The notes under the pieces are model-generated. The model saw only the letters and a list, made by a program, of their open reading frames with translations, searched no databases and was not told where the DNA came from. Shown here piece by piece: positions 1-29,200 of a DNA stretch of 33,469 nt; position 1 is the first letter of the stretch, and every line of letters begins with the position of its first letter. Source of the stretch: Spirochaetes bacterium ADurb.BinA120 (GTDB lineage: Bacteria; Spirochaetota; UBA4802; UBA5368); assembly GCA_002069125.1 (NCBI GenBank), contig MVZN01000030.1, forward strand, positions 1-33,469, in the 5' to 3' direction. The position numbers were made by a program, and so were the translations under genes.

Positions 1-821
1 TTGTCCGCCCTGAGTATGTTCACCACGGGTGATGATGCCGAAACATCCGGATCGCCGGAATATCGCGAATCGGTCATCGTACTCTTTCGTAGGTCTCGCC
101 ACTTTCTGATGCCCGCAACCACCACCTCGGCCTTTTCCAGGGCGTTCACCCCTTCCCACATCATTGTGGAATGGGCCCCACTACCTTTAACCGTAACGAT
201 AAGGTACGCCCCCCCGGTAAGCGCGGTACAGAGCTTCATATCCGTAGGCTCCGGTATGACGCAAGCATCGGCCCGGATGCCCCTTTCCTGGAGCGCGAGT
301 ATACCGTTTCCGGGGCCCTCCTCTTCTACAACCCCCGACACGATGAGATCACCCTTCAATTTTATGCCGCTATCGATGATCGATTTTACCGCATACAGTA
401 TGGCTGCGCCACCACCCTTCATATCGCAGGCCCCTCTTCCATAAAGCAGCCCGTCCTCTATACAGGCTTTCCACGGGTCCCTGGTCCACAGCGACCGGTC
501 GACATCCACCACGTCGAGATGAAAATTGAGCATGAGGCTGCGCCCGTTCCCCTTTCCAGGAAGCACTCCGACTACATTGGGCCTGTTCTCATAGGGATAA
601 CTGAAGCGATAAAAAGCCTCCGGGTATGCCTTCATAAGCTTTTCCGGATCTATATCAAAGGAATCCACATTAAACCCCTTATGATCCAGCCATTTAGCCA
701 GCCAACCGCTCATTTCCGACTCCTTGCCGGTCGGCGAAGGAATGGCTATCATTTCGCTTAAAAGGTCCGTTATCTCGTTTCGGGACTCCCTAATGCGATA
801 GCAAATATCGTTACTTTTCAT
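1..821 (-). CDS. M20-family metallohydrolase (ArgE/DapE/carboxypeptidase type), 3' part beyond window
   Basis: The reading frame is open from an ATG at 821 to the window edge, giving 273 N-terminal residues; the family is normally about 400-430 residues, so roughly the last third is missing. It shows the M20 two-metal signature: HLD near residues 101-103 (H101, D103), a GRGACDMKGG segment with D133, an EEEG segment at 166-169 carrying the catalytic and metal-binding glutamates, and E191 in an EPT motif. M20 enzymes hydrolyse peptide or N-acyl amide bonds (dipeptides, N-acetyl amino acids, hippurate-like conjugates) in the cytoplasm. A good ribosome site (AGGGAG) precedes the ATG. It lies 19 bases after the permease gene on the same strand and is probably the fourth or later gene of the TetR-controlled operon. 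The family is clear; the exact substrate is not readable from sequence. Confidence 0.9.
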   Translation of the reverse strand, partial: MKSNDICYRIRESRNEITDLLSEMIAIPSPTGKESEMSGWLAKWLDHKGFNVDSFDIDPEKLMKAYPEAFYRFSYPYENRPNVVGVLPGKGNGRSLMLNFHLDVVDVDRSLWTRDPWKACIEDGLLYGRGACDMKGGGAAILYAVKSIIDSGIKLKGDLIVSGVVEEEGPGNGILALQERGIRADACVIPEPTDMKLCTALTGGAYLIVTVKGSGAHSTMMWEGVNALEKAEVVVAGIRKWRDLRKSTMTDSRYSGDPDVSASSPVVNILRAD

Positions 822-840
822 CCCGGACTCCCTTTTATGA

Positions 841-2130
841 TTAGCGATTCTTTCTTATCAACAGATAATACCCGCAGCCTATAATCACCCAGCCTGCGAA
901 CACGCCAAGCGCCCATACCTTTAAAATTGCGAGCGATATCACCCAGGTCGGCACCACCGCTATCGCGGCTATTATGGGTATATAGGGATAGCCATGAATC
1001 CTGTAAGGCCTCTCCAGGTCAGGCTCCTTGCGTCGTAGCACCAGGACCGTCAGGGCCACGAGAAAATAGCTTACCAGAACCGAGGCCGCGGCGGTGTCAA
1101 AAAGCACTATGAGCTCCTGTATAAAGCTTCCCGCCACCCCCAGTGCCCCGACAAACAGTATGCCGGCATAGGGGACCTTTGTTTTAGTGCTCAGCTTTCC
1201 AAAGACCGCCGGGACCTCTCCGTCCTGAGCCATCCCGTATAACAGGCGGGAGCCTCCCACCATAAATGCGTTCATCGTGGTGATGAGGCCGCAGATCCCG
1301 GCGATAATGACTATGTAGGCCCCCTTGGGCCCCAGGGCTTTAAATACCGACGGCATGATGGGAATGTGCTCGGCATTCTTTGCGATGGTTTCCCAGTGGA
1401 CCACCCCGGCGGTGACCACCAGAACCGCTATATACATAAAGGCCACGAAGAAGATGGACACCGGGATGATAAAGACCATCTTTCTAATGGGCGCGTTCAC
1501 TTCCTCCGCGGCCTGCGGCAGCACGTCGTAGCCCATAAAGGCGAGCATGGCGATGGGGATCATGAGAAAAATACCGCCGGTGCCTCGCCCAAAGAAGGGC
1601 TTGAAGTTCTGAAGCTCCAGCTCCGGTATCCCGGCAAAGACGAATATCAAAAGCCCTATGAAAAGCGCGGCCGTCAACAGAAACTGGACCAACCCGGAGA
1701 AACGGATGCCCGCCAGGTTGACCAAGGTGAAAACCAGCGCCAGGACCGCCCCTACCATTGCCGGATCAAGTGTCGGAAACACGCCGTTGATCAGCTTGCC
1801 GAGGATTATGCACTCTCCCGGCATCATGGCGGCATAGGCCATTACGAGCAGCCAGCCCGCGATAAATCCGACAAACTTGTTGATGCCCCGGCGCACATAA
1901 ATATAGGCGCCCCCGGCATAGGGCATGGCGGAGCACAGTTCGGCGAAACAAAGGCCAACGAAAAGCGTCAGTATGGCGGCGACGCCGATGGAAATCATCA
2001 CGGCGGGACCGGCCCTGTCGAGAAAAACATTGGCGAGGATGGCCCATGCCATCCCCACCATGGCACCGGTAATGAGCGTGAACAGCGTAAACAGGGTAAG
2101 CCCTCTGGTCAGCTTGTTTTCTTTTTCCAT
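841..2130 (-). CDS. APC-superfamily amino acid/amine permease
   Basis: A 429-residue, strongly hydrophobic protein with about 12 predicted membrane segments. The first helix carries the APC-type glycine-rich stretch (TLITGAMVGMAWAI), followed by a PYAGGAYIYVRR segment after TM2 that is typical of the family and contacts substrate. The length is normal for APC permeases. It should import an amino acid, amine or related organic acid by proton or sodium coupling at the cytoplasmic membrane. The ATG at 2130 follows purine-rich AAGGGGAATAAGG. It sits 31 bases downstream of the tandem hydrolase gene and 19 bases upstream of the M20 hydrolase gene, so it very likely supplies the substrate of this operon. 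Specificity cannot be assigned; the neighbours suggest a conjugated or amide-bearing compound. Confidence 0.92.
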   Translation of the reverse strand: MEKENKLTRGLTLFTLFTLITGAMVGMAWAILANVFLDRAGPAVMISIGVAAILTLFVGLCFAELCSAMPYAGGAYIYVRRGINKFVGFIAGWLLVMAYAAMMPGECIILGKLINGVFPTLDPAMVGAVLALVFTLVNLAGIRFSGLVQFLLTAALFIGLLIFVFAGIPELELQNFKPFFGRGTGGIFLMIPIAMLAFMGYDVLPQAAEEVNAPIRKMVFIIPVSIFFVAFMYIAVLVVTAGVVHWETIAKNAEHIPIMPSVFKALGPKGAYIVIIAGICGLITTMNAFMVGGSRLLYGMAQDGEVPAVFGKLSTKTKVPYAGILFVGALGVAGSFIQELIVLFDTAAASVLVSYFLVALTVLVLRRKEPDLERPYRIHGYPYIPIIAAIAVVPTWVISLAILKVWALGVFAGWVIIGCGYYLLIRKNR

Positions 2131-2161: not shown

Positions 2162-3562
2162 TTATTTTAAAAACTCCACGATGCTCTTTGTGTCCAAAAC
2201 AGGGCCGATCAGACGGTCGAACCTCGCAAGCGCCAGGGCATGGTCTTTCTCGGTCGCCGTGGAGCAGGCATCGGAAACGATGATGGAAAAATATCCCCGG
2301 TCGGAGGCGTTCCTTACCGTCGCTTCAACACAGAAATCAGATAGAAACCCGCATACGATGATGCCGGTTATTCCGAGATGGTTCAGATAACGCTGCAAAG
2401 GGGTCGACTCGAAGGCGCTCCAGCTTGCCTTCTCGATTATCATGTCCTCGCCTCGAATAAGGGGCTCGATATCATCGAAGAACCCAGTATCCCAGCCATC
2501 ACCGAGGAGGACGCCGGGGGCGTCTCTGTGCACCTCCTCCATAAGCCTCCCGTCGAATGTCCCTGGGAATATGTCCTTTCCGCCGGGCAAACGGGAATGC
2601 TTAGTCCAGAAAACCGGTATACCGGAGGCCCTGCATGCCTTTACCAGAGATTCGATTTTTCCGACGGCGCCGGTTTCTTTCGCCTTTTTCCATGTCCCTG
2701 TGGATGCAAAGCTCCCTTTCTCGTGAAGGACGCTGTTTTGCGGGTCGATGACGAGAAGGGCGGTGGCCTCTTTATGAAGATAGAGCCTCCAATCGACGAT
2801 ATCGTTGAGCGAGAACCCCTCCGCCATTTTTTTGCCGATTTCCTCGACCGAAAAACTGCGCTGTACGGAGGGAAGCGGAGGCGCACTGGATTTATCGAGC
2901 AGATCGAGGACTCCGGCGGTGTCAATGACCGGCCCGATCATCCGTCGCATTCTTTGCAGCGAGTCCTGGTGGAGCTCCTCGTTCTGAGTGGCGCAGCCGT
3001 CGGACACCGTGACGGCCAGATAACCCTTGTCGCAGGCCGAACGTACCGTCGCTTCGATGCAAAAATCGGTAAGGAATCCTGTTATTAGAATCGTCCGCGC
3101 TCCGATGTTTCTAAGGTATTTCTCCAGGGCGGTCCCTTCGAACATGCTGGACCCGTGCTTTCCGATTAGGATGTCCTTTTCGTCGACACAGTCAGCCAGA
3201 CCCTCGTATATGTCGGTCTCCCATGTGTTCTGCAAAAACCCGTTCGGAATCAGGGTCCTTATCAGGGTCAGCGAATCGCCGTCCCAGGTCCCCGGGAACA
3301 AGTCCCTCCCCTTCTCCAGCCTGTACTGCTTGCCCCATATTACGGGCACCCCGGACTTTCTGCACGCGGCCACAATCTTTTTGATATTTTCTATTGAGCC
3401 GTTTTCCCTGGCGTGTTTCCATACCTGCCAGAAATTGAGGAAGCCCTTTTCGTCCAGAACGTCGTTCTGCGGGTCGATTACAAGTAAGACGGAGCGGGAG
3501 CTTTTAAAATACTCCTTCCAACCAGCCCGCTCAAATAAATCGAGTGCTCCATTTTTTTCCAT
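2162..3562 (-). CDS. Tandem isochorismatase-like cysteine hydrolase (two complete domains)
   Basis: This 466-residue protein is an internal duplication of the isochorismatase-like fold, which normally makes a protein of about 180-220 residues. Domain 1 (about 22-222) has D30 in VIDPQND, K135 in IGKHGSSMF and C168 in TDFCIEATVR. Domain 2 (about 265-465) has D273 in VIDPQNS, K378 in IIEKASWSAF and C411 in SDFCVEATVR. Both halves therefore keep the Asp-Lys-Cys triad used by amidohydrolases of this superfamily (nicotinamidase, N-carbamoylsarcosine amidase, maleamate amidase). A linker of roughly 40 residues separates them. The gene lies 18 bases after the CoA-ligase gene and 31 before the permease gene. 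I infer that it hydrolyses an amide or carbamoyl bond in the pathway; the substrate is unknown. The ATG at 3562 is preceded by GGGGGT. Confidence 0.9.
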   Translation of the reverse strand: MEKNGALDLFERAGWKEYFKSSRSVLLVIDPQNDVLDEKGFLNFWQVWKHARENGSIENIKKIVAACRKSGVPVIWGKQYRLEKGRDLFPGTWDGDSLTLIRTLIPNGFLQNTWETDIYEGLADCVDEKDILIGKHGSSMFEGTALEKYLRNIGARTILITGFLTDFCIEATVRSACDKGYLAVTVSDGCATQNEELHQDSLQRMRRMIGPVIDTAGVLDLLDKSSAPPLPSVQRSFSVEEIGKKMAEGFSLNDIVDWRLYLHKEATALLVIDPQNSVLHEKGSFASTGTWKKAKETGAVGKIESLVKACRASGIPVFWTKHSRLPGGKDIFPGTFDGRLMEEVHRDAPGVLLGDGWDTGFFDDIEPLIRGEDMIIEKASWSAFESTPLQRYLNHLGITGIIVCGFLSDFCVEATVRNASDRGYFSIIVSDACSTATEKDHALALARFDRLIGPVLDTKSIVEFLK

Positions 3563-3580
3563 AACGATACCCCCGATCGG

Positions 3581-4921
3581 TTATTTTTTCTCGTAGGCCC
3601 GCTCGAAATAATTAATTTTATACTCCGACCGTTCGAGCGTGTTAGGCGGAATCATTATGATGTCAGCGGTAAACACCAGCTTCTCCTTTATGCTCTTCTT
3701 TAAGCGGCCGGCAAGGTCCTTAATCGCGTCCCCGGTAACGCCCTCCCCGTGTTCGATCTTGAGTTCCAGATTGGTGCTTATGGCCGGTCCCGGCTCATAG
3801 AGAACGATTCTGAACTCGCCGGTGGTATCCGGCATGAACGAGCTGATTACGTCCTTCACCGCGGATGGAAAGACATTGACGGCCTTGACTTTCAGCATAT
3901 CGTCGCTACGGCCGAACACGCTGAAGCGGAATGCTGTGCGGCCGCATGCGCATGCCGAGGTATAAACGCGAACCATGTCCCGGCATCTGTAACGGAGCAC
4001 GGGCGTGGCCTCGCGGTCGATGGTGGTGTACACTATCTCGCCCTCGGCTCCGTCAGTCATGGGGATGCTTTTAAGGGTTGCCGGATCGATCAACTCCGCC
4101 TGGACCAGCCCCTGCCCGCAGAAATGCATGCCCTCGCCTTCGCCGCACTCGCTTGCCAGGTCGGCGGCCACGTCGGCCAGTCCGTAAAAGTTCCGTGCGA
4201 CGATGCCCCACTCGGCCTCTATGCTGCGCCTGTCCTCCTCGGGCATCGCCTCTCCCGCCAGAAATCCCTTGCTGAAACCGAGCTCCTTAGGCTCGCGCCC
4301 AAGCTGTTTTCGCACATAGTCGGCCAGAAAGACTGTCGCCGAGGGGGTCGCGAACAATACCGTGGGTTTCATGTCGAGGACGATCTGGATGAGCTTTTCA
4401 AGCCCGGTAGTGGCCAGCGGCGCGGGGATAACGCACACCCCCATGGCCTCGGCCGAAACGGCCTCGGAAAGTCCGCCCACGAAGAGCGTATAGTTCGCAG
4501 GATGGACGAAAGAATCTCCGGGCCGCAGCCCCCCGGTCCAGGCGTGCCTTGCGAAGAGCTCCTTCCAGTTGTCCGCGTCGCGGGCCGTAAGTCCTATGTA
4601 CAATGGCCTTCCGGTCGTACCGCTGGTTCCCTGTATGCGAACAAGCGCGGACTTGGGAGCGCACTGATGTCCGCCGAGCCCTCCGTCCTCGGCCTGGGTC
4701 TGTCTCAGGTCGTCCTTGGTGGTAAACGGGAGCTTTACGATGTCATCGCGCGTCCTGATGTCGCCCGGCTCTAGGCCGATATCCTTGAATTTTTTCCTGT
4801 AGAAGGGGGAATTATCGTACACATAAGAGACCTCCTTTAGGAGCCTCTCCGTCTCCAGCTTAAAAAGCCCCTCGTCCGAAATCGTTTCGATTTCTTCATT
4901 CCAGTATTTTCTGTCTGCCAT
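3581..4921 (-). CDS. Phenylacetate-CoA ligase (PaaK)-type AMP-forming CoA ligase
   Basis: A 446-residue adenylate-forming enzyme. The nucleotide-binding loop reads GTSGTTGRP at about residues 98-106. The region FYGLADVAADLASECGEGEG matches the PaaK segment with its conserved tyrosine and cysteine-containing turn, and a DRE-type ATP-ribose motif (TTIDREATPVLRYRCRD) follows. The C-terminal part (GRSDDMLKVKAVNVFPSAV) is the PaaK lid domain. These enzymes activate aryl or short acyl carboxylates to CoA thioesters with ATP in the cytoplasm. The ATG at 4921 is preferred; a GTG directly in front at 4924 is an alternative, and AGGAGG lies just upstream. It is the first structural gene behind tetR and one operator, and starts the catabolic operon. 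Aromatic acid specificity is likely from the family but unproven. Confidence 0.88.
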   Translation of the reverse strand: MADRKYWNEEIETISDEGLFKLETERLLKEVSYVYDNSPFYRKKFKDIGLEPGDIRTRDDIVKLPFTTKDDLRQTQAEDGGLGGHQCAPKSALVRIQGTSGTTGRPLYIGLTARDADNWKELFARHAWTGGLRPGDSFVHPANYTLFVGGLSEAVSAEAMGVCVIPAPLATTGLEKLIQIVLDMKPTVLFATPSATVFLADYVRKQLGREPKELGFSKGFLAGEAMPEEDRRSIEAEWGIVARNFYGLADVAADLASECGEGEGMHFCGQGLVQAELIDPATLKSIPMTDGAEGEIVYTTIDREATPVLRYRCRDMVRVYTSACACGRTAFRFSVFGRSDDMLKVKAVNVFPSAVKDVISSFMPDTTGEFRIVLYEPGPAISTNLELKIEHGEGVTGDAIKDLAGRLKKSIKEKLVFTADIIMIPPNTLERSEYKINYFERAYEKK

Positions 4922-5014
4922 CACTCCTCCTCCTTTCTCCTAAATTGAGTTTATATACCGCGCCCATTGACGGGCGGGCGCACAACAGCCGAGATCGCAT
5001 TTAATCCAATATTT

Positions 5015-5052: not shown

Positions 5053-5634
5053 TCAGCTCGCAGCCTTCATGCAAAATGTCGTGACCCGCTCGACGTCGGC
5101 GGGAGTAAACTTTCGCTTTTTCGGTTTTGCGTCTATGCGTATCTGCATTTGCTGCAGCGGTATCGAAAAAAAGATTATAAAGATGTCTTCCAGGGAAAGC
5201 TTGGGGCTTATCTCTCCCGTTGCGGCCCCTTTCTCTCGTATGGCCACGCACTGGTTTCGCGTGGCCCTCATTCGTGAAACTGGGACATGGAATCTGTGCT
5301 CATTTATAAGGAAAAAGAGGAATTTGACGAGGTCTGGCTTGCTGTCGCTCATCGAGAACATGTATGAGGTTATTTTAACCATGGCCTCGCGGACGGTGGC
5401 GCACTCGCGGATGGCGGTATCGATAAAATTATCGAATTCTTCGACCCTGTTTTCGTAGATGGAGCGCACCAGGTCTTCTTTGTTTTTATAATGGCTGTAG
5501 AGGTATCCGGACGAAACGCCCGCCTCCCCGGCTATCTCGGCGACCGAAGCGCCGGCATATCCCTTTTTGACTATCATGGATATGGCCGCTTTTTCAAGCC
5601 TCTCCCCGAGCTTAAGATTTACCTTTCTCGCCAT
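5053..5634 (-). CDS. TetR/AcrR-family transcriptional regulator
   Basis: About 193 residues. The N-terminal helix-turn-helix is clear: ASVAEIAGEAGVSSGYLYSHYKNKEDLV, with the typical GYLY-HYKNKE recognition helix and following helix. The rest is an all-helical ligand-binding domain ending in a conserved-looking MQIRID segment. I chose the ATG at 5634 (MARKVNLK) because the alternative ATG at 5655 lies inside the second operator copy and adds seven residues not usual before the HTH; neither start has a strong Shine-Dalgarno. The gene is the promoter-proximal member of the minus-strand cluster and is bracketed by two operators, indicating autoregulation and control of the downstream ligase-hydrolase-permease-hydrolase genes. 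The operator resemblance to FadR boxes and the CoA ligase next door make an acyl-CoA or aryl-CoA ligand plausible. Confidence 0.9.
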   Translation of the reverse strand: MARKVNLKLGERLEKAAISMIVKKGYAGASVAEIAGEAGVSSGYLYSHYKNKEDLVRSIYENRVEEFDNFIDTAIRECATVREAMVKITSYMFSMSDSKPDLVKFLFFLINEHRFHVPVSRMRATRNQCVAIREKGAATGEISPKLSLEDIFIIFFSIPLQQMQIRIDAKPKKRKFTPADVERVTTFCMKAAS

Positions 5635-5640
5635 AATTAT

Positions 5641-5660
5641 ATAATGAACATTCATTCATT
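5641..5660. promoter_or_regulatory. TetR operator O2 at the tetR start
   Basis: The bases 5643-5660 read AATGAACATTCATTCATT, 17 of 18 identical to operator O1 (AATGAACACTCATTCATT at 5020-5037). It contains the dyad AATGAA-CA-TTCATT. It lies immediately upstream of the preferred tetR start codon, so binding would block tetR expression and possibly affect the divergent plus-strand promoter about 85 bases away. Confidence 0.75.
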
Positions 5661-7988: not shown

Positions 7989-8492
7989 ATGGGCCGTGAG
8001 AATTCGATGGAAAAGAAGGTACTGGTCTTCGAGGCCGCCAGATGCACGGGATGCAGGATATGCGAACAGTGGTGCAGCGTCCACCACTTCGGCATGGCCG
8101 GACCCTCGCTCTCGCGCATTACGATAATCCGCGACCACGTCAATCAGATCGACAACGGCATCATCTGTCATCAGTGCGTCGACGCGCCGTGCATCGCCTC
8201 GTGCAAGTTCGACGCGCTCTCGAAGGACGGTACAACCGGCGCCATTATAGTCGACGCCCGGAAGTGCACGGGCTGCAGGCTGTGCATCCGGGCCTGCCCG
8301 CACGGGGCCGTCCGCATGCATCCCGGCGAAAAATACGTGCTCATCTGCGACCTGTGCGCCGGGGAGCCGCAGTGCGCGCTCCATTGCCCGGAGAAGGCCG
8401 TACAGTATCTGGAGCGCGGCAAGGCCGAGCGCCCCTACCGCTCGGCCCTGGTCCGGGGACTTGCGGGAAGGGGCAAACGCTATGAGCGATGA
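7989..8492 (+). CDS. Four-cluster [4Fe-4S] ferredoxin-type electron-transfer subunit (AOR partner)
   Basis: About 167 residues with four cysteine groups in HycB/DmsB-like arrangement: CTGCRICEQWC; CHQCVDAPCIASC; CTGCRLCIRACPHGA; CDLCAGEPQCALHCP. These bind four [4Fe-4S] clusters. The protein lacks a signal peptide and should be cytoplasmic. Starts at 7989 (AGGA about nine bases upstream) and 8007 (MEKKVLVFEAARC, closest to family N-termini) are both possible; a TTG at 7971 is less likely. Its last 11 bases overlap the AOR gene, so translation is coupled and the protein is the likely electron acceptor or intermediary of the oxidoreductase. Confidence 0.92.
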   Translation: MGRENSMEKKVLVFEAARCTGCRICEQWCSVHHFGMAGPSLSRITIIRDHVNQIDNGIICHQCVDAPCIASCKFDALSKDGTTGAIIVDARKCTGCRLCIRACPHGAVRMHPGEKYVLICDLCAGEPQCALHCPEKAVQYLERGKAERPYRSALVRGLAGRGKRYER

Positions 8493-10317
8493 CGATCGAA
8501 TCCGGGCCTTCCTCGGAGACGTGCTGCGGGTAAACCTCTCGAAGGGGAATATTTCGCGCGAGGAGCTTCCAATGGAGGCCGTGCGGCGCTTTATCGGCGG
8601 GCGCGGCCTTGGGGCATGGTACCTCTACAACGAGGTGGGACCGGAGGCCGACCCGCTCGGCCCTGCGAACAGGCTCATCTTCATGAACGGTCCTCTCGTC
8701 GGCACGCCCCTGCCCGCCTGCAACAAGATAAATCTGTGCTTCAAGTCTCCGCTGACATCGGGCTATTCATACTCGCTATGCGGGGGGCACTGGGGCCCGG
8801 AGCTGCGGTTTTCCGGCCGCACCGGCCTCATCATTGAAGGCGCATCGAGGGAGCCGGTTTACCTTTGGATCGACGACGACGAGATCGAGCTTCGCCCCGC
8901 GGACCGGCTCTGGGGCCGGACCGTACCCGAAACCGAGGAGCTGCTTCGCGCTGAGCTCGGTGGCGACGAACTGGTCCAGATCGCCTGTATAGGGCCCGCG
9001 GGGGAGATGCTGAACAGGATGGCCTGTATAACCGCGGGCCGTTTTCGGGAGTTCGGGCGCGGGGGCTGCGGAGCGGTTATGGGAAGCAAAAGGCTAAAAG
9101 CCATAGCCGTAAGGGGCACGGGGACAGTCCGCTTTGACGACGTAGCGGGGGTGATGGGGCTTGCGGAGAGGTTGACCGCGGACCTCCTCATCCAGCCCAA
9201 GACGATCGAGCGTCGCAATTACGGCACGGCCGAATTCCTCAAAGGCATTAACGACAATGGATTTCTGTGCACCAGAAACTTCAGCGGGACTCATTTCGAG
9301 GAGGGGCACCTTCTGGAAGGGCCGCGGATGCGCGAGGCCATAGTTGTGGGCGACTCCTCGTGCTTTGCCTGCCCCGTGGCCTGCGGAAAGCGCAGTTATG
9401 TGAAAACGCGCGACGGGAGGCGCATGCTGCTGGAGGGGCCGGAATTCGAGACCATTGCGCTTTTAGGCTCCAATTGCGGCGTATCGGACTGGGAGTCGCT
9501 CGTGGAGGCCACGCTGGTCTGCGATGAATACGGATTCGACACCATGAATGCCGGGGCCTGCGTTTCGCTGGCCATGGAATGCTTCGAGAAAGGGATAATA
9601 ACAATTAGGGATACGGGGGGGATGGAGCTTAGGTTCGGGAATGGGGCGGCGCTTGTGTCCCTTCTACGCATGATGGCCGAACGGAGGGGTATCGGCGACA
9701 TACTTGCCGAAGGTGTGAGATGCGCCTCCGAACGCTTCGGCGCCCCCGAGCTCGCAATGCACTCCAGGGGACAGGCCCTGCCGGCCTACGACCCGCGGGG
9801 CTGCAAGAGCATGGCCCTTGCCTATGCGACCTCGCCCAAGGGGGCCCATCACATGTTCTCGCCCACCATGGGCCATGAAATCGCCGCGGGCACCCGCCTC
9901 TCGTACGAGGGCAAGGGCGCGCTACACATGGAGAATCAAATGGAGATGTGCGCCGTGGATTCGCTGGGTATATGCTCCACCGTGCGCGGCAGCTTTAATA
10001 TCTCCGAACAGGCCAGGGCCTTCGGGCTTGTGACGGGCATGAAGCTCGACGTGGAGGGACTGAAGCTCGCGGCCGAGCGAACCATCAACCTTGAGCGAAT
10101 ATATAACGCGCGCCTGGGCTTCTCCCGCAAGGACGATACGCTTCCTAAGCGCATCCTGTGCGAACCTGTTCCATCCGGCCCGAGCGCAGGCGAGACGGTG
10201 GACCTGGACCGCCTGCTCGATGAATACTATTCGCAAATGGGATGGAACCTCGAGGACGGCCTGCCTACCCGCGAGCGCCTTCTAACGCTCGGCCTGTTGG
10301 ACCCGGACGCGGTATAG
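8482..10317 (+). CDS. Aldehyde:ferredoxin oxidoreductase family (tungsto/molybdo-pterin enzyme)
   Basis: 611 residues, the standard AOR length. The N-terminal domain has VLRVNLSKG, FIGGRGLGAWYLYNEV and NRLIFMNGPLVGT. The pterin region has the FGRGGCGAVMGSKRLKAIAV signature. The [4Fe-4S] ligands are C294, C297 and C301 (CFACPVAC) plus C498 in the DSLGIC motif that also contacts the pterin cofactor. AORs oxidise aldehydes (or reduce acids) with ferredoxin as electron carrier, using W-bis-pterin. The ATG at 8482 overlaps the end of the ferredoxin gene; purine-rich GGGAAGGGG lies upstream. AOR paralogues differ widely in substrate (aldehydes, glyceraldehyde-3-phosphate, benzoyl-CoA-type reductions), and this sequence alone does not decide. 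A hairpin after the stop may end transcription. Confidence 0.95.
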   Translation: MSDDDRIRAFLGDVLRVNLSKGNISREELPMEAVRRFIGGRGLGAWYLYNEVGPEADPLGPANRLIFMNGPLVGTPLPACNKINLCFKSPLTSGYSYSLCGGHWGPELRFSGRTGLIIEGASREPVYLWIDDDEIELRPADRLWGRTVPETEELLRAELGGDELVQIACIGPAGEMLNRMACITAGRFREFGRGGCGAVMGSKRLKAIAVRGTGTVRFDDVAGVMGLAERLTADLLIQPKTIERRNYGTAEFLKGINDNGFLCTRNFSGTHFEEGHLLEGPRMREAIVVGDSSCFACPVACGKRSYVKTRDGRRMLLEGPEFETIALLGSNCGVSDWESLVEATLVCDEYGFDTMNAGACVSLAMECFEKGIITIRDTGGMELRFGNGAALVSLLRMMAERRGIGDILAEGVRCASERFGAPELAMHSRGQALPAYDPRGCKSMALAYATSPKGAHHMFSPTMGHEIAAGTRLSYEGKGALHMENQMEMCAVDSLGICSTVRGSFNISEQARAFGLVTGMKLDVEGLKLAAERTINLERIYNARLGFSRKDDTLPKRILCEPVPSGPSAGETVDLDRLLDEYYSQMGWNLEDGLPTRERLLTLGLLDPDAV

Positions 10318-16226: not shown

Positions 16227-19200
16227 TCAAGCATCCCTGGTTCGACCGGACTGCCCGGTGTACTTCACGACGAGCATGGTAAAGTCATCGTCGATTCCGC
16301 CGGGCGAATCGGCGTGCCCCCTCACCATGGCGAAGATATTGTCGCATATTGACCGCGGATCGTTGCCGCCGAGCCGCAGAAGCGCGCCCTGAAGCCTTTC
16401 CTCGCCGAAAATTTCCCCCGAGCCATTGCGCGCCTCGATGACCCCGTCGGTATACAGCACGATCCCGTCGCCACTGCGCAGCGTCATTGTCCGCTCAGCG
16501 TATATGCACGGTCCGAAGGCGTCGGCTATTACCCGCCCCCTCACATTGACGATCTCTATCCCAAAGGCTCCGCGCGTCAGCAAAGGTTCCGGATGCCCCG
16601 CCGAGGAGCATATTAGGCGTCCGGTAGCCAGGTCCAGGCAGCAGACGCATACGGACAGAAAATGGGAGCTTAGCTTTCCGAGAAGAGCGTCGCATATCAT
16701 CGACAGCGTCCACGCGGGGGAATGAAGCGTGTGCCTCCATGACTGGAGCGAGACCTTGGTCATCGAGGCAAGAAGGGCCGCGGGCATGCCGTGCCCCGAA
16801 ACATCGCCCATTACAAGCCCCAGAAGGCCGCGTTCACTGTCGTACAACACGTCGAAAAAGTCGCCGCCCACCCGCATGTTGGGCTCATAGCGGAACGCCA
16901 TTTCGGCCATGTCGAGCTTCGGAAGCCCGACGGGCAGAAGCGCCCGCTGGATCTTTTCGGCCAGGGCGATCTGGTTTTCCAGTTCGCGCTTCTGTTTCTC
17001 TATGGTTTCGGTCCGCCGGGCGACCTTGTCCTCCAGGCTCGCGTACAGGTTCGCGTTTTCTATGGAAATGGCGGCCTGGGTCATGAAGACGCGCAAAAGG
17101 TCGGCGTCATCGTCCGTAAATACGGCGCCTGAGAGCTGGTTGTCAAGATAACAAACCCCCACAAGCCGGTCGTGGCCCGTGATGGGAATGCATAGTATGG
17201 ACTTGAGTCCGTAGTCGAGCACGCTCTGAAAGCCGGTGAACTTTTCCTCCTTTTCGGCGTTGGTCGTGATCACCGTTCTTCGCGTCCTGGAGACCTCGTC
17301 GATTACGCCGCGCGAATACTCCGGGATCGCCTCACCGTCAATGTTTCGAGCCACTCGCATGATGAGCCCGCCTGTCTCCCCCTCCGTCAGTAACAGGTAT
17401 CCGCGCCGCGCTCCCGTCACCTCCATGGCCCTGTCCATTATGTGTTCCAGCAATTCATCGAGATTGAGGATGGAACTCATATCCTGGCTAATGCCAATGA
17501 TCGAGGAAAGGCGCTGGTGGTCGGTCAGGCGCTGGATCGCGTTGCGCTCCTCCGCCCCGGGGCCGAGGCACTCATCCGCCATTTTTCGATAATGCCTCGA
17601 TCCCACTTCGGCGAACAGCCTGCGGGCGGAATCGAAGCATGAGGACGCTTCGTCGTCTTTACACACGCGCGAGAGAAGCCCACCGAGTCCCAGATAGGCC
17701 CTCCCAAGCTCGAAGCGCCTGCCCGCACGGGCGCAGAGGCCAATGGCCTCCCGATACAATCGCACGGCCTTTTTATCACGTCCGAGCGCTTCGGCGCACT
17801 GTGCGGCAACCCGGACCGCCGCGCAGTGGATGAGCGGCCAGCCCCGTGAGCGCGCCAAGGCCTCGCGGCACGCCTTCATCATCATGGCGCGTAATTTAAA
17901 CGCCGACGGACCCTTCGGCCCCGAATTCAGATCGAGGTAAAGGCGCGTGTAGGCCTCTGCGCGATAGACATACAGCGGGGCGGTATACACCCTGAGGGTA
18001 AAACGGCGCTTGCGATCGAGCTCCCTCCCTCTATCCAGGAACTCAATCGCCCCCTGGTGATCGTTCATCTCGCTACGGCAGTAGCCGGCGTAGGCGCAGG
18101 CCAGAAAGTGGGCGAACCATATGCCCTGGCGCGCGCTAAGATCTAGGGATTTTCCGGCGCATTCCAGCGCCTTGGCGTGGTCGCCCAAATCGGTGTAAAC
18201 CCAGGCCAGGTTGGCAAGCCCGTTACAGAGCCCGTAATCGTTGTGGATCTTCCCGCTTATCTCGATCCATTCGTTGAGATGGCGTATACTCTGCTCGTAA
18301 TTAGATGTGTAGTACCGGTTTACGCTGGCGATATTGTTGACCTGGCCGATCTCCCAGATGTCGCCTATGCGCCTGAAATTTTCGTAGCTTTCCAGAAGCA
18401 GGTCCGTGCTCTTCCCAAGGTCCCCGGTCCACGAATAGAAGGTCCCCAACAACTGCCGCGAAACGGCCATGTAAAAAGTATCGCGGATCTTAGTGCTGAT
18501 GTCCAGCCCCAGCTCCAGATACGGAAGCGCCCAGCGGAACGCGGGTATCGCCGCGTACATCATTCCCAGGCCCAGTGTGCTTATGGCCAGTTCCCTGGAA
18601 ACGCCTATGCGCCGCTCGGAGATGTTCAGCATGCGCAGCGTCGAGCGGACAAATTTTAAAAGCGAGCTTAGGGCGTAATTCCAGCTCATGGAATGGTAAA
18701 ACTGGATGATGAGCAGGTCGCTTTCGGCGGGCGTCCTCCCGCCACGAAATCGCAGCAATCCCGGCAGCGCCTTCAATAGAAGATGCGCGGCGAATTCGCG
18801 CAGAATTCCGGAAACGACCCGCCACGTCGACAGGGGCAGGCGCTCACCCAGAAGGGCGAGGCCTTCCGCGCCGTAACGCTCACAGTTCGCGAAATCGCCT
18901 TTTTTAAAATAGGCATGGCTTATCTGCCGGTAGGCGGTGGCCCGGGCCATGGATGATTCGAGACGCGGCAATACCCGGGTGAAAATGCCGATGGCCTCGT
19001 CATTCCTTCCCGTCACCAGGAAAAGCCCGCCAATCCTGGCCTGACACTCAAGCCACAGCGGAATATCGACAGGGGCCCCCGCCCCGTCGCGCTGAAGCAT
19101 TTCGACGGCCAGGGTAAAATAGCGTATCGCGTCCTCATTGGCATAACTCTCCATAGCGCGCATTCCGGCCGGATAGGCGTATTTAAGCGTCTTCTCGACA

Positions 19201-21395
19201 TTGCCGGCCTGCGAATAATGGAACACGAGATCGAACACCGGGTATTCCGGCCCCTCCGGCGTTTCCTCGAGCGTTTGCGCTATACGCAGATGCAGGATCC
19301 TTCTACGATCCGCCGAAAGCATGTCGTAGAACGCCTCTCTGATGCGGTCGTGGACAAAAAACAGTTTTCCGCGCTCCCTCCTGTGCGTTTCCAGCAGCTG
19401 TTTGGCCACAGCCTCATCGACGATCCCGACGATCTCGTTATGCGAGTACTTTTCGCCCTCCCCTCCATAAACCAGCAGGTCGAAGAGAAGGCTTATGTCG
19501 AATTTACGGCCTATTACCGCGGCGTAAGAGAGCACCTCGTTCGAACGCGAAGAAAGTCCGGCGATTCGCAGCATGACCGCGTCCAGAATCCGACTCGATA
19601 TCTCAAGCGATCCCAGCCTCTCCTCGTCCGCGCTCCAGCGCATTTCCGTAAGGACGAGCGCCCCTTCGCCCACCATGCGCTTGACGATCTCAAGCGCGAA
19701 AAACGGGTTCCCTCGGCTCTTTCGGTATACGACATCGACCACCCTGTCGAGATACGGGTCGTCTGAACCCAGGAGCCCATGCACAAAGCGCGTGAGCGAG
19801 GGGTGGTCCAGAGGGTCCAGGCTTAACCTCTCCAGCGGGTATCCCGCCCGTTCGGCGAGCTGGATTAATCCGAGAAGGCCGTGTGAGGCCGAAACCTCGT
19901 TGACTCGGTACGCGCCCAGGATCATGAGGGGCGCGAAGGCGATCCCGGAGATCATCTCCTCCATTAGCGCGAAGCTCCCTTCATCGGACCACTGCAGGTT
20001 GTCCAGAAACAGGACGAGCGGCGCCTGCGTATCGCCGAGCGCCCGGAAAAAATCCCCTGCCACCATAAGGAAGCGCCGGTTTTCACGTTCGGGCTCCAGG
20101 TCGACCGGGTCGGGACATAGACCGGTTATCTCCACGAGCATGGGGTTGAGCCGTAAAACCACACCGCAGCGGTCGACTCCTATCGACCTGACTCGATCCT
20201 TCAGATTGAGCCGGTAGCGCTCACGCATCTTGGGGAAATGCCGGAGGAACTGATTGAGGGCTTCCTTGAACGGCCCATATGGCACCTTGTTCTCCCCGGA
20301 AAAACAATTCCCCTCGATGAATACACCGCCGCTGGAAATCACATGGTCGCGGAGCTCCTCGGCAAGCCTGGTCTTCCCAAGTCCCGCCTCGCCGGCGACA
20401 AGGCATATCGAACCACGTCCTTCGGCCAGCTCGCCGTACCGGGCCTTCAGCCTGGCGAGCTCGCCATCGCGGCCCACGACGCCCGTCCGCGAATTGAGAC
20501 GCGCCTGGCGATCCGCGGCGCCCGGCATTATATCCCTGGAGCCCGAGAGGATCATTTTTATATCGTACAACAATCCATGCGCGCTCTGATAACGGTCCAC
20601 GGGCTCTTTTTCGAGCAGCTTGAGGATCACGCGTTCGATTGCCGGCGGAATTTGCGGGTTGTGCGCGGAGGGCGGCAGGGGTTTTTTCGCGATATGCTGG
20701 TGGATTATGGCCAGCGCATCGCTCCCCTCATAGGGAAGCCTCCCGGTCACAAGCCGGTACAATACCACACCGAGCGAATATAGATCGCTGCGCTCGTCGA
20801 CGGGACGTCGAATAATGCCGCTTTGCTCCGGCGACATAAAGCCGAAGGTGCCTGTCACCCCTCTTATCGATCCTTCGAAAAACTCGCGCACGTGCGCGAA
20901 GCCGAAGTCGATTATCACGGCGCGGAGGTCCTCCCCTCTTCCGGATATCATGATATTCCCGGGTTTGATGTCCCGATGGACTATTCCCATATCGTGAACG
21001 TGCGCGAGCGCGTCGCTCACCTGGGACGCCGCCAGAAGCGCCTCGCGAAAGGTGAAGGACCCGCCTCGGTCCAGCTCGCCCTGCATGCTGGTCCCCTGGA
21101 TGTGCTCCATCACGAGATAATGTACGGACTGTCCGGGGGCCAGCGGAGCGGGGAGCTCCCCGATCTCGTGAATCCTGACAATGCCGCGATGGCGTATGTT
21201 CGAAACGGTTAGCGCTTCGGCGTGGAAACGAATGATATCCTCTATGCGCCGGGAAACGCCGCCTTCCTTGAGGATCTTGAGGACTACCATGCTCCCGTCG
21301 ATTCCCCGGGCGCGGAAAACCACGCTCGTGCCGCCTTCGGAGATGAAGTCGGCGATCACATAACGTTCGGCGATGATCTGGCCGGATAGATCCAT
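16227..21395 (-). CDS. Ser/Thr protein kinase - AAA ATPase - TPR - GAF - SpoIIE phosphatase multidomain protein
   Basis: A giant soluble signalling protein. Numbers below count from a TTG at 21470 with a GGGGAGGG ribosome site (1747 residues); I list the ATG at 21395 (residue 26) because it directly precedes the kinase domain, but the TTG is a real alternative. Kinase about 37-305: loop SEGGTSVVF, K65, HRDIKPGN at 165-172, DFG 188-190, SPE at 213-215. AAA/STAND-like ATPase about 330-620: Walker A GEAGLGKTR at 360-368, Walker B LVLFLDNLQW at 485-494. Helical TPR-rich part about 760-1300. GAF about 1335-1470, coiled coil about 1478-1510, then PP2C/SpoIIE about 1528-1740 with GGD, GDVSGHG (D1556), YTDG (D1675) and DDDF. 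All kinase and phosphatase key residues appear intact. The family resembles PknK-type regulators that control stress or anti-sigma switches. The target is unknown. Confidence 0.93.
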   Translation of the reverse strand: MDLSGQIIAERYVIADFISEGGTSVVFRARGIDGSMVVLKILKEGGVSRRIEDIIRFHAEALTVSNIRHRGIVRIHEIGELPAPLAPGQSVHYLVMEHIQGTSMQGELDRGGSFTFREALLAASQVSDALAHVHDMGIVHRDIKPGNIMISGRGEDLRAVIIDFGFAHVREFFEGSIRGVTGTFGFMSPEQSGIIRRPVDERSDLYSLGVVLYRLVTGRLPYEGSDALAIIHQHIAKKPLPPSAHNPQIPPAIERVILKLLEKEPVDRYQSAHGLLYDIKMILSGSRDIMPGAADRQARLNSRTGVVGRDGELARLKARYGELAEGRGSICLVAGEAGLGKTRLAEELRDHVISSGGVFIEGNCFSGENKVPYGPFKEALNQFLRHFPKMRERYRLNLKDRVRSIGVDRCGVVLRLNPMLVEITGLCPDPVDLEPERENRRFLMVAGDFFRALGDTQAPLVLFLDNLQWSDEGSFALMEEMISGIAFAPLMILGAYRVNEVSASHGLLGLIQLAERAGYPLERLSLDPLDHPSLTRFVHGLLGSDDPYLDRVVDVVYRKSRGNPFFALEIVKRMVGEGALVLTEMRWSADEERLGSLEISSRILDAVMLRIAGLSSRSNEVLSYAAVIGRKFDISLLFDLLVYGGEGEKYSHNEIVGIVDEAVAKQLLETHRRERGKLFFVHDRIREAFYDMLSADRRRILHLRIAQTLEETPEGPEYPVFDLVFHYSQAGNVEKTLKYAYPAGMRAMESYANEDAIRYFTLAVEMLQRDGAGAPVDIPLWLECQARIGGLFLVTGRNDEAIGIFTRVLPRLESSMARATAYRQISHAYFKKGDFANCERYGAEGLALLGERLPLSTWRVVSGILREFAAHLLLKALPGLLRFRGGRTPAESDLLIIQFYHSMSWNYALSSLLKFVRSTLRMLNISERRIGVSRELAISTLGLGMMYAAIPAFRWALPYLELGLDISTKIRDTFYMAVSRQLLGTFYSWTGDLGKSTDLLLESYENFRRIGDIWEIGQVNNIASVNRYYTSNYEQSIRHLNEWIEISGKIHNDYGLCNGLANLAWVYTDLGDHAKALECAGKSLDLSARQGIWFAHFLACAYAGYCRSEMNDHQGAIEFLDRGRELDRKRRFTLRVYTAPLYVYRAEAYTRLYLDLNSGPKGPSAFKLRAMMMKACREALARSRGWPLIHCAAVRVAAQCAEALGRDKKAVRLYREAIGLCARAGRRFELGRAYLGLGGLLSRVCKDDEASSCFDSARRLFAEVGSRHYRKMADECLGPGAEERNAIQRLTDHQRLSSIIGISQDMSSILNLDELLEHIMDRAMEVTGARRGYLLLTEGETGGLIMRVARNIDGEAIPEYSRGVIDEVSRTRRTVITTNAEKEEKFTGFQSVLDYGLKSILCIPITGHDRLVGVCYLDNQLSGAVFTDDDADLLRVFMTQAAISIENANLYASLEDKVARRTETIEKQKRELENQIALAEKIQRALLPVGLPKLDMAEMAFRYEPNMRVGGDFFDVLYDSERGLLGLVMGDVSGHGMPAALLASMTKVSLQSWRHTLHSPAWTLSMICDALLGKLSSHFLSVCVCCLDLATGRLICSSAGHPEPLLTRGAFGIEIVNVRGRVIADAFGPCIYAERTMTLRSGDGIVLYTDGVIEARNGSGEIFGEERLQGALLRLGGNDPRSICDNIFAMVRGHADSPGGIDDDFTMLVVKYTGQSGRTRDA

Positions 21396-21593
21396 TTTCT
21401 TTTTATCGATCGTTTCCGCATGCCGGAAAAAGTGAAGACCAGGGCTGTAAACGAATCCCTCCCACGACAAGAACGCCCTCCCCCGTTTTCGGCGGCGGGA
21501 ATCTGTACTTACATGAGAGAAAGCGTTCCATTCATAGCATAATGAAAATACATGGAATAGCGACGGAGGTCAATAAATTATCATTTCTCCCGG

Positions 21594-22668: not shown

Positions 22669-23739
22669 TCAGAAATAAAACACCAGCGCGAGGATTGCGG
22701 CGATGATGACGATAAAGATGACGGAGAGCGCGAGTATCAGGCCCAGGCTGGATTTCGACTCGTCTCCGGCGCCCTGGCGAGCGAGCTCATAAGCCGGGTC
22801 GAGGGCGACCTTTATATTCGCCTCCTCTTCGACGATCTTCGCGTAGATGCCCCTTGCGACGATTGCGAATATCGAATATCCGCCTTCCGGCCTGGATTTA
22901 ATAGATTTGACACGCGCGGTGACGGGCAACAAGGCCCCGTCCTCGTAGGCGTTGAGCGCCTTTGCGACCGAAACGCACTTGGGATTGGAGTCGGTAATCG
23001 ATACGCGAATACGGTCGCCCGGTTCGATACGCGAGATGTCCTTTCCCTTTATGGGCGAGAGGATGAGCGAACAGCTCATTATAAGCTTCACCCCTTCCTG
23101 CCCCTCGCGCACCTCGTCCGCCGCCTCCTTCGCCACGGGCGGCGGACCCTCCTCGGGCGGACCTTTAAGCGCGGAGGCGTCGATCTTCTTGGCGCTCGCC
23201 GAATTTAGCTCCATGTCGAGGGAGGAGATGTGCTGGGAATCCACCTTTATGTCGATTCGCTGTACGTTCAGGATGAACTGCAACAGCTTCTGAAGCGCCC
23301 GCTCCACCGCGATGCCGTTGTCGCTCTGCAAAAACCGAGTCAGCTCGGCGCAGAAGCTCAGGTTGAAGCCGTCATGGAACCTATTCTTAACCAGCGTCTC
23401 GAAGTGGGTGTCGTGCTCACCGGCGGCGAGCGCCTCCAGAATGTCCTTTTCGAATAGCCTCCAGTCGACGCCGGTATCGATGGACTTGGTCATATATGTC
23501 GAGACCACCAGGACCAGGGAGTCCACCAGCTTGTTGTAAATACCGTTATAGAATACCAGAAAAGCGCCGTTCAGCGTGGACGAGGCGAAACGTGCCTTCA
23601 GCACGTAAAGGTCCTTGTATGAACCGGCTGCCATGGCCCTGGCCTTCTCCATGTCGCCGCCGGCGTAATGCAGCGCGATATTGATCCTGCCGGTCTGCTC
23701 GGAGAGCGAATTGACCGCGGAATCCAGCTCTTTGCTCAT
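22669..23739 (-). CDS. Tail-anchored protein of unknown function
   Basis: 356 residues I do not recognise. About 1-40 (INIALHYAGGDMEKARAMA) resembles a small UBA-like three-helix fold in pattern only. Residues about 50-170 are helical and polar. A proline/alanine-rich linker (ALKGPPEEGPPPVAKEAADE) precedes a beta-rich region (VKLIMSCSLILSPIKGKDISRIEPGDRIRVSI ... GGYSIFAIVARGIYAKIVEEE). A single C-terminal membrane helix (LGLILALSVIFIVIIAAILALVFYF) ends the protein, so the bulk should face the cytoplasm. The gene follows a receiver-domain gene by 41 bases and precedes RNase D. This suggests a membrane-attached partner of the receiver protein; no function is claimed. Confidence 0.85.
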   Translation of the reverse strand: MSKELDSAVNSLSEQTGRINIALHYAGGDMEKARAMAAGSYKDLYVLKARFASSTLNGAFLVFYNGIYNKLVDSLVLVVSTYMTKSIDTGVDWRLFEKDILEALAAGEHDTHFETLVKNRFHDGFNLSFCAELTRFLQSDNGIAVERALQKLLQFILNVQRIDIKVDSQHISSLDMELNSASAKKIDASALKGPPEEGPPPVAKEAADEVREGQEGVKLIMSCSLILSPIKGKDISRIEPGDRIRVSITDSNPKCVSVAKALNAYEDGALLPVTARVKSIKSRPEGGYSIFAIVARGIYAKIVEEEANIKVALDPAYELARQGAGDESKSSLGLILALSVIFIVIIAAILALVFYF

Positions 23740-26252: not shown

Positions 26253-29200
26253 TCAGGAAGCGGGCCTTTTCATGGACAGTGGACGCGCCGGGTCGGTTAC
26301 CGCGTTGATCTTCACCGCGAACGATGTCCTGTTTTCAATGTCGCGGTCGGTTACCATATGCACGTCCAGCAGCCCATGTGACCGATACCCGGTTCTAAGA
26401 TAGTTCATCTCCGAGAGGCTGAGGCTCCATCCCTCCAGCCAGACCGACAGGGCTTCCCGCTGTTCGCGCGTTCCATCGACGTGAAAAAGAAGATCTATAT
26501 CGCTGTCGGGGCCGGCGGTGGCGTTTGCTGTCGAACCGATAAGGTAAACCGCCCTCACCCCGAAGCGTGAGGCGTCGACCTGTCCGGCGATCTGTTCGGC
26601 CATGTGAAGGCGCCAGCGCCAGTATTCCTCACCGTGGGCCTCGTGCGGCCTGGGGCGCACGATCGAGCTTTCCGCGGCGGCTTCCGGTTCGTCGAAATAT
26701 CCAATCGACTCCCCAAGTTCCGCGTTTAAGAGGATTTTAAGGATTTTCCCGCCCATCCGGCCTGGAATATCTATAACCTTGAGGGTATCGGCGATATGAG
26801 CGTACTCCGGCAGTATGTCCGGCAGCATGTTGCGCGAGCCGGTAAAAAACAGTTCGTTATATACGACATCCCTGTCGTCGGGGTACAGCGGGATGTACCG
26901 GATTCCGGTTTCCGCAAGATCCTGGAAGAAGTGCGTACCGAAGGAAAGCTCCGGCGAATAGGTGCCCCTCTTCATCGATATTTCGATTAGAACCGCGGTA
27001 TTGTTGATGTCGGAATAGCTTACCTGGACCCCCAGCTTGATGTCGCCGCGGCTCCCCCACCGCCCCGGACCCATCAGGATGAACTGCCGCTTGGGCAGGA
27101 CCGCGTTTAACCGCCCTATGGCCCGCCCGACGTCGGTAAGCATTTCCAGGCTTTCCATCTCCCCGTATTTCCGCGGATTCACCCAGACCACGTGTGTGAT
27201 ATCCGGCACCCTGCCCCCGGAAATATAGCGGCGAGCAGTGAACAGTGTTCTGTCTTCGGGGATATCGCGGGGGATGGGGCTCGGGGCGGAGTCCTCGCCG
27301 GTGTTCTGGGGACGGCATTGCAGAAGGTAAAAATCCACGCCGTCCGAGGCGAATTCGATGTCGACCGGCATGCCAAAGCCATTTTCCAGGGCGGTCAGGA
27401 TGGAGCGCACCCGCCTTATAAACGTGGTCCTGGTTATGATTCCCTCGAAGGTCACCAGAAGGTCGCCCGACTTGAAATCGATGTCGAACCCGGATGGCCG
27501 CGAAATGTGACCATCCCTGTAAATCGAAACAATCTGGTGAACGGCCGGTATCTCCTCGCCGTAAGTGCGGAGCAGGTCGATTACGGATATCGTCTCGAAG
27601 CAGTTGGTTTCGAGATTTATGACATCGATCCACGAGGGCGAGTAGTGCCGGATCTCGTCCGGGCTTACATTCACTCTAAGCGCGGGCTGGCCGGGCGAAA
27701 CCAGAACCGGATAGTCGTTGCTTACCCGGTCCACGGCGCGCGTTCCCATGCCCGGCACCATCCGTATAAGTCCGTCCTCGCGCCTTAAACGGGGTGACCA
27801 GCGGAATTCGTTGTTGCTGAAGGCGATGCCCGCAAAAGCGGGAAAAAAATACGGGCCCACCCTGGTCCCCACCACCTCCTGGATCATTATTCCCATCTCC
27901 TCGTGCAGGTCCAACAGGCCCTGCTCCGCGCGATAGATTATAGGGTCCGGCCCGAAGACCGACGCGTATACCTCGGCGATCGCGTCCAGGAGGGCGCTCA
28001 ATCGCTTTTGCTTGGGGCCCTGGTTTGCCAGGAAAAGGCTCTTGTATTTTCCCGAGAAGGCCGTGCCTACGCGGTCCTCGAGCAGGCTCGAACTTCTAAC
28101 TATTATTGGCTTGTCGCCGAAGTCGTCGAGCGCCATGGAAAGGCCCTTTACGATCTCGGAGGAGAAGTGCGAATTCTTGAAGAGCTGAATGATGTTCGGA
28201 TAATCGATACGGACCTGTTCGGGGTCCTTGTATTTCTGTTCGTTTATATCCTCGAGATCGTTGTGCCGTAAAAATTCCGAGATAGAATCGGCCGTAATGT
28301 ACCAGGTCCTGGGGACCTTTATACCCGCAAACAGCCCCTCCTCGTCAGGCTGTTTTAGCAGTATGTGCCGCGCCAGAAGAAGCCCGGAGCTTTTTCCGCC
28401 AAGTTTTCCGTTGCTTCCGGCATGGAATATTATCCTGGTTACGAGGTCGAAAAAATCGCTTACCTCCAGGTGCCGTTTGGCGATATTTATAAACTCGATG
28501 GTGTCGGAAAAGAACCGTCGTATGAGCGACACCCTCAGCCACTTCTCGGTGGAGGGCGCAAGCACCATTCTGTCCCCGGCTATTGCCCGATAGCGCAGGA
28601 TGGCGTCGATTATCGCGCTCAGGGCGGTGCCGCCGGAATCTATGGTTTTGATAAGAAAGCTGATTTTGTTCTCGTGGATCCATTTCTGAAGGCACTGCAG
28701 GATCTCGTTGTCGCTGAGGTTCCTGGCCGCGATAGAAAAAACCTGATCGCTTATCTCGATGAGCTTCTCCCTGGACTGCTTGAAGCTCGGGCTGTTGGCG
28801 TCGAACTCCGGTTCGGGTTCGTTTTTAACGAATTCCCCGCCGAATTTTCCGAGGAACTGCCTGGCCTCCCCCACCCCGTTCCAGAAAAGATAGTATATCA
28901 TTTTCCGCGAGATGTGAAGATACAGCTTCTCGTCGGTGCGCCTTACGAGCTCGGTTATGACCATCCATTCGCGGTTTTTCTTTTCGGCCAGATCGCGGCT
29001 TGCCGTTTCCCATTCGTGTAAAAGCCTCTTGAGCTTGCGGTGGAAGATGGTCTGCCCGATGCGGTCCGCGATGGTTTTGATAAGCTTGCGCTCCTTTAGC
29101 AGGAAAAACCCGTCATCGACGCCGGGCACCTCCCGGGTGTACGACACCTCGAGGGAGCCGACGAGCTCGTCCTCCTCCCTTATTTCGGCGCTATCCCTCC

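Follow-up and report, generated by a model that had tools for sequence, protein, structure and literature searches.

Several cysteine hydrolases with the isochorismatase-like fold have been described in detail. RutB (PDB 8bkd, 8bll) is a single-domain protein with an Asp-Lys-Cys triad, and its genomic context is made up of the rut genes, unlike that of the gene analyzed here. The maleamate amidases NicF and Ami (PDB 3uao, 4l07) hydrolyze an amide by means of the same triad, and are likewise single-domain proteins. The true isochorismatases EntB and PhzD are not known to have the catalytic Cys. A further comparison is with TrtA and BiuH, two separate proteins that act in series on triuret and are encoded in one operon (PMC7948467). 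The study of BiuH names nine active-site positions as conserved in the family and describes Lys145 as essential and substrate-binding, with variants that are effectively inactive (PMC5806882); in both enzymes, a glutamine of the neighboring subunit (Gln215 in BiuH, Gln202 in TrtA) is described as completing the active site (PMC5806882, PMC7948467).

Here, we analyze a 33,469-nucleotide stretch of DNA (the window) from Spirochaetes bacterium ADurb.BinA120, in which two domains of this family are fused in one chain (Table 1). An earlier note on this DNA had claimed that the chain contains two full triads, and all six residues are indeed read from the translation. The N and C halves of the window protein have 89 identities over 208 residues (43%) with zero gaps (E 1e-65), and PF00857 matches two stretches of the protein with a summed score of 262.5 bits (135.3 and 131.3 bits per half; Pfam cut-off 27). 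The motif GFLTDFC/GFLSDFC, which would hold the active-site cis-peptide of the family, is also present. In addition to the Asp-Lys-Cys triad and the PF00857 score above the cut-off, the predicted models have the fold of solved family members.

Table 1. Features of the tandem gene, its products and its gene cluster (window coordinates unless a locus is given)
Feature	Location	Strand	Remarks
Tandem isochorismatase-like hydrolase, 466 aa	2162..3562	-	ATG start; translation, Pfam, six full-length orthologs
N half, residues 1-230, triad D30/K135/C168	2873..3562	-	
C half, residues 231-466, triad D273/K378/C411	2165..2872	-	
Codon of D30	3473..3475	-	Residue from translation, coordinate by arithmetic
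Codon of K135	3158..3160	-	Residue from translation, coordinate by arithmetic
Codon of C168	3059..3061	-	Residue from translation, coordinate by arithmetic
Codon of D273	2744..2746	-	Residue from translation, coordinate by arithmetic
Codon of K378	2429..2431	-	Residue from translation, coordinate by arithmetic
Codon of C411	2330..2332	-	Coordinate by arithmetic, bases looked up in the sequence
PaaK-type adenylate-forming CoA ligase	3581..4924	-	Directly 5' of the tandem gene, 18 bases before its ATG
APC amino-acid/amine permease	841..2130	-	Directly 3' of the tandem gene, 31 bases after its stop
M20-family peptidase/deacylase, cut by the contig end	1..821	-	From open frame
Same-genus counterpart of the M20 gene	L081:981-2261		PF01546
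TetR-type regulator	5053..5655	-	Upstream of the ligase; same-genus counterparts exist

We compared the tandem protein with solved and named members of PF00857. Its best sequence match among solved structures is PDB 3kl2, a putative isochorismatase from Streptomyces avermitilis, a 226-aa chain with one matched stretch. The predicted fold and the triad are shared with RutB, which is 21-22% identical to the C half; however, the tandem protein scores 127.9 bits against the NCBIfam model TIGR03614 for RutB, which has a cut-off of 377.95 bits. We also reject the assignments as a biuret hydrolase (NF050097, 127.4 vs. 370 bits), a nicotinamidase/pyrazinamidase of the PncA type (PRK11609, 61.6 vs. 174 bits) and a YcaC-type hydrolase (NF041461, 40 vs. 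310 bits). The presence of Cys in both halves sets the protein apart from isochorismatases of the EntB and PhzD type. The fold is also shared with the maleamate amidases, of which 4l07 is 21% identical to each half.

Using a pattern scan of one genome per species, which picks up close relatives only, we found six more full-length tandem proteins with 60-66% identity to the window protein. Two are from Candidatus Solincola (L005 and L007), two from other Actinomycetota (L006 and L008), one from a genome (G296; L004) that is Myxococcota by taxonomy and whose record is titled Deltaproteobacteria, and one from an unplaced bacterium (L009); the phylum of the window is probably a third phylum beside those of the other tandem genomes. 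In samples of genomes, the tandem gene was present in 1 of 296 from the phylum of the window (the window itself), in 4 of 31 from the class of G299 (with any match at 1e-12 in 8 of the 31), and in 2 of 297 from the phylum of G301 and G296, where the third match, in G452, is single-domain. The statement that family members usually have a single domain holds among the matches listed in both of the samples used for it. In one sample, 41 of 59 genomes had a match, and all listed matches other than that of the window lie in frames of at most 302 aa; in the phylum of G299, 106 of 119 genomes had a total of 257 matches, and, among those listed, only the tandem ortholog of G299 has two in one frame. 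Among plasmid records, 819 of 72,556 matched the tandem protein, all with less than 60% identity, and the best 8 of these 819 extend over 525-795 bases each, or approximately one domain, with a stated query cover of 80-96%. Judged by titles and abstract openings, we found no account of such a tandem isochorismatase-like protein in the literature searched.

The earlier note had proposed dating the duplication by means of trees of the two halves. We built a tree from the 14 halves together with 24 single-domain relatives, out of 38 single loci matching the half profile; six of these singles fill less than half of the kept columns, and several are long-branched. In this tree, the N halves form a clade with support of 99/99, the C halves form a clade with support of 99/94, and N and C halves together are separated from the 24 singles with support of 91/97. 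Because the N and C halves are separate clades that jointly stand apart from the singles, a single duplication and fusion predates all seven proteins; a duplication confined to the genus of the window is ruled out by the same tree.

Several of the single-domain relatives themselves deviate from the triad. Two proteins, at L044:1468-2112 (G305) and L045:101-727 (G304) in the class of G299, have Gly for the catalytic Cys in a TEYGI motif, and their sequences suggest that they are probably non-catalytic or have another chemistry. In the alignment, the singles L057, L059, and L060 have Glu for the triad Asp, while Glu replaces the triad Lys in the single L061, whose row is long-branched and perhaps misaligned.

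In the tandem proteins, both halves are well conserved. The six triad residues are identical in seven of seven proteins, which is beyond chance and bears out the claim that both triads are kept. Moreover, eight of the nine positions listed as conserved for BiuH (D, Q, K, F, T, G, C, and T) are identical in all 14 halves, such that the fold, the triad and eight of nine conserved pocket positions are in common with BiuH and TrtA; at the ninth, BiuH Phe41, all N halves and the C half of the window have Val, while the other six C halves have Asn. In five close Geothermincolia pairs, dN/dS (NG86) is 0.14-0.23 for the N halves and 0.14-0.25 for the C halves, and purifying selection on the two halves in these pairs is similar. 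On the basis of these values, we reject simple decay of either half throughout the family, despite an excess of change in the C half of the window. Of the 123 positions on which the other six C halves agree without exception, 29 are changed in this half, compared with 15 of 124 for the N half of the window relative to the other six N halves (Fisher p 0.020), which makes it the more diverged half of the window protein. Among its private changes are D277S, next to the catalytic loop, G380S and T408S. Thr408 is the counterpart of Thr171, the oxyanion-hole Thr of BiuH; a Thr is present at this position in 13 of 14 halves and in 26 of the 27 single-domain loci (of the 38 matching the half profile) in our structure-guided alignment, and is Ser in the C half of the window. 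Based on these substitutions, the C site of the window may be weakened or retuned with its triad retained.

The same changes bear on the idea that the protein has one working site, the other half being structural or regulatory and losing activity; in the case of the window, this would most likely be the C half. While the unequal load of private changes in the window, including D277S and T408S, is in line with this idea, the other six C halves have just 0-12 private changes each, all seven proteins retain the C-half triad, and dN/dS of the C halves is low in the Geothermincolia pairs. Structure prediction also argues against it. The C half alone (41 alignment rows) is predicted with a mean pLDDT of 92.3, and this model superimposes on RutB with a Z score of 30.3 and 1.7 Å over 207 residues and matches the maleamate amidase 4l07 with a Z score of 26.8. 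In the model of the whole chain, which is based on seven rows and has a mean pLDDT of 72.3 with lids below 50, the C half matches RutB (Z 21.0) and the N half matches 4l07 (Z 20.7). A half that is unable to form the pocket, the outcome that according to the earlier note would speak against two complete sites, is not seen in these models, in which the predicted fold of the C half is of high confidence and the N half resembles family members. Altogether, we consider a single working site quite improbable.

Having two intact triads does not make the halves equivalent. Among 223 gap-free columns of the 14 halves, 52 are identical throughout, while 10 are fixed for different residues in N and C halves. 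At the site aligned with BiuH Lys145, all seven N halves have Ser (Ser138) and all seven C halves have Trp (Trp381); counted in the alignment, Lys132 of TrtA falls in the same column. The 10 half-specific columns also include G134 in the N halves and E377 in the C halves, which adjoin the catalytic Lys. By contrast to TrtA, the site of its Glu72 is occupied by Gln in 13 of 14 halves and by His in the C half of the window, again as counted in the alignment. As far as can be judged from these residues, neither predicted site is a copy of the other, and two different pockets would be expected to suit either a pair of related substrates or two bonds within a single substrate. Moreover, the replacement of the substrate-binding Lys, together with the missing partner Gln in all halves, leads us to reject a ureide hydrolase.

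The stretch by which the neighboring subunits of BiuH and TrtA complete each other's sites is also changed. Compared with BiuH, it is shorter by three residues in all 14 halves, and the resulting gap coincides with the partner glutamine in each of them, in three MAFFT modes of alignment with BiuH as well as in a HMMER alignment. Val218, the other gating residue contributed by the neighboring BiuH subunit, meets Met208 and Leu451 of the tandem halves. In the shortened stretch, all 14 halves share an RxIGPV motif without exception; among the 27 singles, its Arg is found in three and its Pro in none. This pattern indicates that the stretch used by family dimers for completing each other's sites is under a strong constraint of its own in the tandem proteins, as judged by alignment.

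These observations allow two further explanations to be weighed. In the first, the fusion would only fix the usual dimer in one chain, with both sites catalyzing the same reaction. The completion of BiuH and TrtA sites by a partner glutamine, the invariance of RxIGPV in the corresponding stretch of both halves, and the 52 of 223 columns identical in all 14 halves fit such a fused pseudo-dimer; however, the ten columns fixed differently, among them S138/W381 and G134/E377, would not be needed by a symmetric fused dimer, and in both halves a three-residue gap takes the place of the partner glutamine. We regard this explanation as unlikely, yet the least unlikely of those that we set against our preferred reading. 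In the second, the protein would be a single-chain two-step deamidase, in which the sites act serially on two C-N bonds of one compound, for which the separate TrtA and BiuH enzymes offer a precedent, and cross-complete their pockets via RxIGPV before the acid is passed to the neighboring CoA ligase. We have downgraded this explanation because the partner stretch is three residues shorter and is without the glutamine, and hold it to be distinctly unlikely. The suggestion that retention of both triads points to two substrates or a pseudo-oligomer therefore stands in part: the retention itself is real in all seven proteins; the half-specific columns (10 of 223), with S138/W381 at the BiuH Lys145 site, lend indirect support to two substrates; and a pseudo-oligomer is plausible in view of the role of the neighboring subunit in BiuH and TrtA and of the RxIGPV motif in both halves, but is weakened by the altered partner stretch.

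The genomic neighborhood provides information on the pathway. In the window, genes for a TetR-type regulator, a CoA ligase, the tandem protein, an APC permease and an M20 enzyme form a row on the same strand. The best solved matches of the ligase are the PaaK phenylacetate-CoA ligases (PDB 2y4o, 4r1l); however, its score against NCBIfam PaaK is 275 compared with a cut-off of 646.3, and it is not an assigned PaaK. An ortholog of this ligase with 71-77% identity is present in all six other tandem genomes (the best paralog among the matches listed has 40%), giving seven of seven tandem-bearing genomes with the window included. In the window and in L005-L009, the tandem gene is immediately preceded by the ligase gene, although the latter is divided over two frames in L008 (L008:6562-7888), either by an assembly error or as a pseudogene. 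In G296, the ligase gene, which is part of a cluster with genes for an Amidohydro_2 enzyme and an APC permease, is on another contig than the intact tandem gene. There, the ligase gene is followed by the first 12 tandem codons and then by unrelated sequence resembling an inserted mobile element (L032/L075, about 100-190, minus strand); 84 bases of this interrupted copy are 94% identical to the region at the start of the intact one, and the intact copy is located behind the short tail of a ligase gene. In the four Geothermincolia loci, the Amidohydro_2, ligase and tandem genes are found together, with a related TetR gene nearby in three, while L009 is without a close Amidohydro_2 neighbor.

The ligase also occurs in genomes where the tandem gene is absent or broken. 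In two congeners of the window, G004 and G001, it has 89% identity. In G004, the order is TetR, ligase, tandem relic, APC permease, M20 enzyme and Amidohydro_2, the relic being an in-frame remnant of 45 codons between the ligase and permease genes (L081:3587-3756). In G001, the TetR and ligase genes are accompanied by genes for an Amidohydro_2 enzyme and an MFS transporter, and there was no tandem match at E ≤0.1 in the stretch examined. Similarly, G341, G379, and G414 have Amidohydro_2, APC permease and ligase (65-67% identity) genes and no tandem match at E ≤0.1 in the 16-kb stretches searched; nor are they among the 3 of 297 genomes that match in the phylum sample of G301 and G296, in which G341 is listed without a match and to which G379 and G414 belong by their numbering. 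Two sub-threshold hits, in L077 (E 0.17; 41 residues, just 5' of the ligase) and L078 (E 0.63), were taken as chance. Altogether, a ligase ortholog of at least 65% identity was found in 12 genomes; seven of these have an intact tandem gene, one has a relic and four have no match beside the ligase. On a tree of these ligases, in which that of L008 was entered by its second piece only, three changes of the tandem-presence label are needed; its deeper branching is left open, so gains and losses are not countable.

We conclude that the core of the cluster consists of a transporter, an Amidohydro_2 enzyme and the CoA ligase and that the tandem gene is an optional addition beside the ligase. Because the ligase cluster is found without an intact tandem gene in five genomes, the pathway does not need the tandem enzyme. 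The best solved match of the Amidohydro_2 gene product is the uncharacterized protein 3irs, and for the permease and MFS genes there are matches to broad families that do not reach the respective cut-offs; a conjugated bile salt transporter is the nearest model for the MFS protein of L004, but this match (157 vs. 400 bits) is too weak for an assignment. The five of 12 genomes with a ligase ortholog of at least 65% identity that have the cluster without an intact tandem gene could also be taken to mean that the neighborhood is incidental, i.e., that the tandem enzyme detoxifies an amide or salvages it for nitrogen with no metabolic tie to the ligase. However, the ligase is present in all seven tandem genomes, and, where the tandem gene is broken or deleted (G296 and G004), its traces lie directly 3' of the ligase gene. 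We consider an incidental neighborhood highly improbable.

The reading that we prefer, and deem about as probable as not, is that the tandem protein is a two-site cysteine amidase with two specificities, serving as an optional feeder of a pathway composed of a transporter, an Amidohydro_2 enzyme and a CoA ligase. The analysis shows the sequence with its two triads, the predicted fold of both halves, the single duplication, purifying selection on both halves in close pairs and the linkage with the ligase; catalysis by both halves, their differing specificities, the order of the steps and the kind of substrate are what we infer in this model. Each half would most likely hydrolyze the C-N bond of an amide or carbamoyl group: Cys would attack the carbonyl, ammonia would leave, and water would release the acid from the resulting thioester, assisted by Asp and Lys. 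The pockets would have diverged after the one ancient duplication, and the two sites would most likely act on different but related substrates, or on two groups in the same substrate. In this model, the adjacent PaaK-type ligase would receive the released acid and activate it with CoA, and the tandem enzyme would thereby feed a small catabolic cluster that also includes the TetR regulator, the transporter and the Amidohydro_2 enzyme. With one chain, two cysteines that can be removed singly and seven orthologs, the protein offers a clean natural system for the question of why dimeric enzymes become fused, and the constant ligase partner, together with losses of the tandem gene among relatives with an otherwise retained cluster, provides a concrete route to the substrate.

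Other genes of the window also deserve mention. An aldehyde ferredoxin oxidoreductase is encoded at 8461-10317, and a gene for such an enzyme is also found near the ligase cluster in the congener G001. The 356-aa open reading frame at 22669-23739 has no Pfam match at E 0.001. A 1062-aa protein encoded at 26253-29441 combines a PPDK ATP-binding domain with a stretch, close to its end, that resembles a nucleotidyltransferase. Finally, the gene at 16227-21470 encodes a 1747-aa protein with kinase, AAA_16, TPR, GAF, and SpoIIE phosphatase domains, such that kinase and phosphatase form the two ends of one chain.
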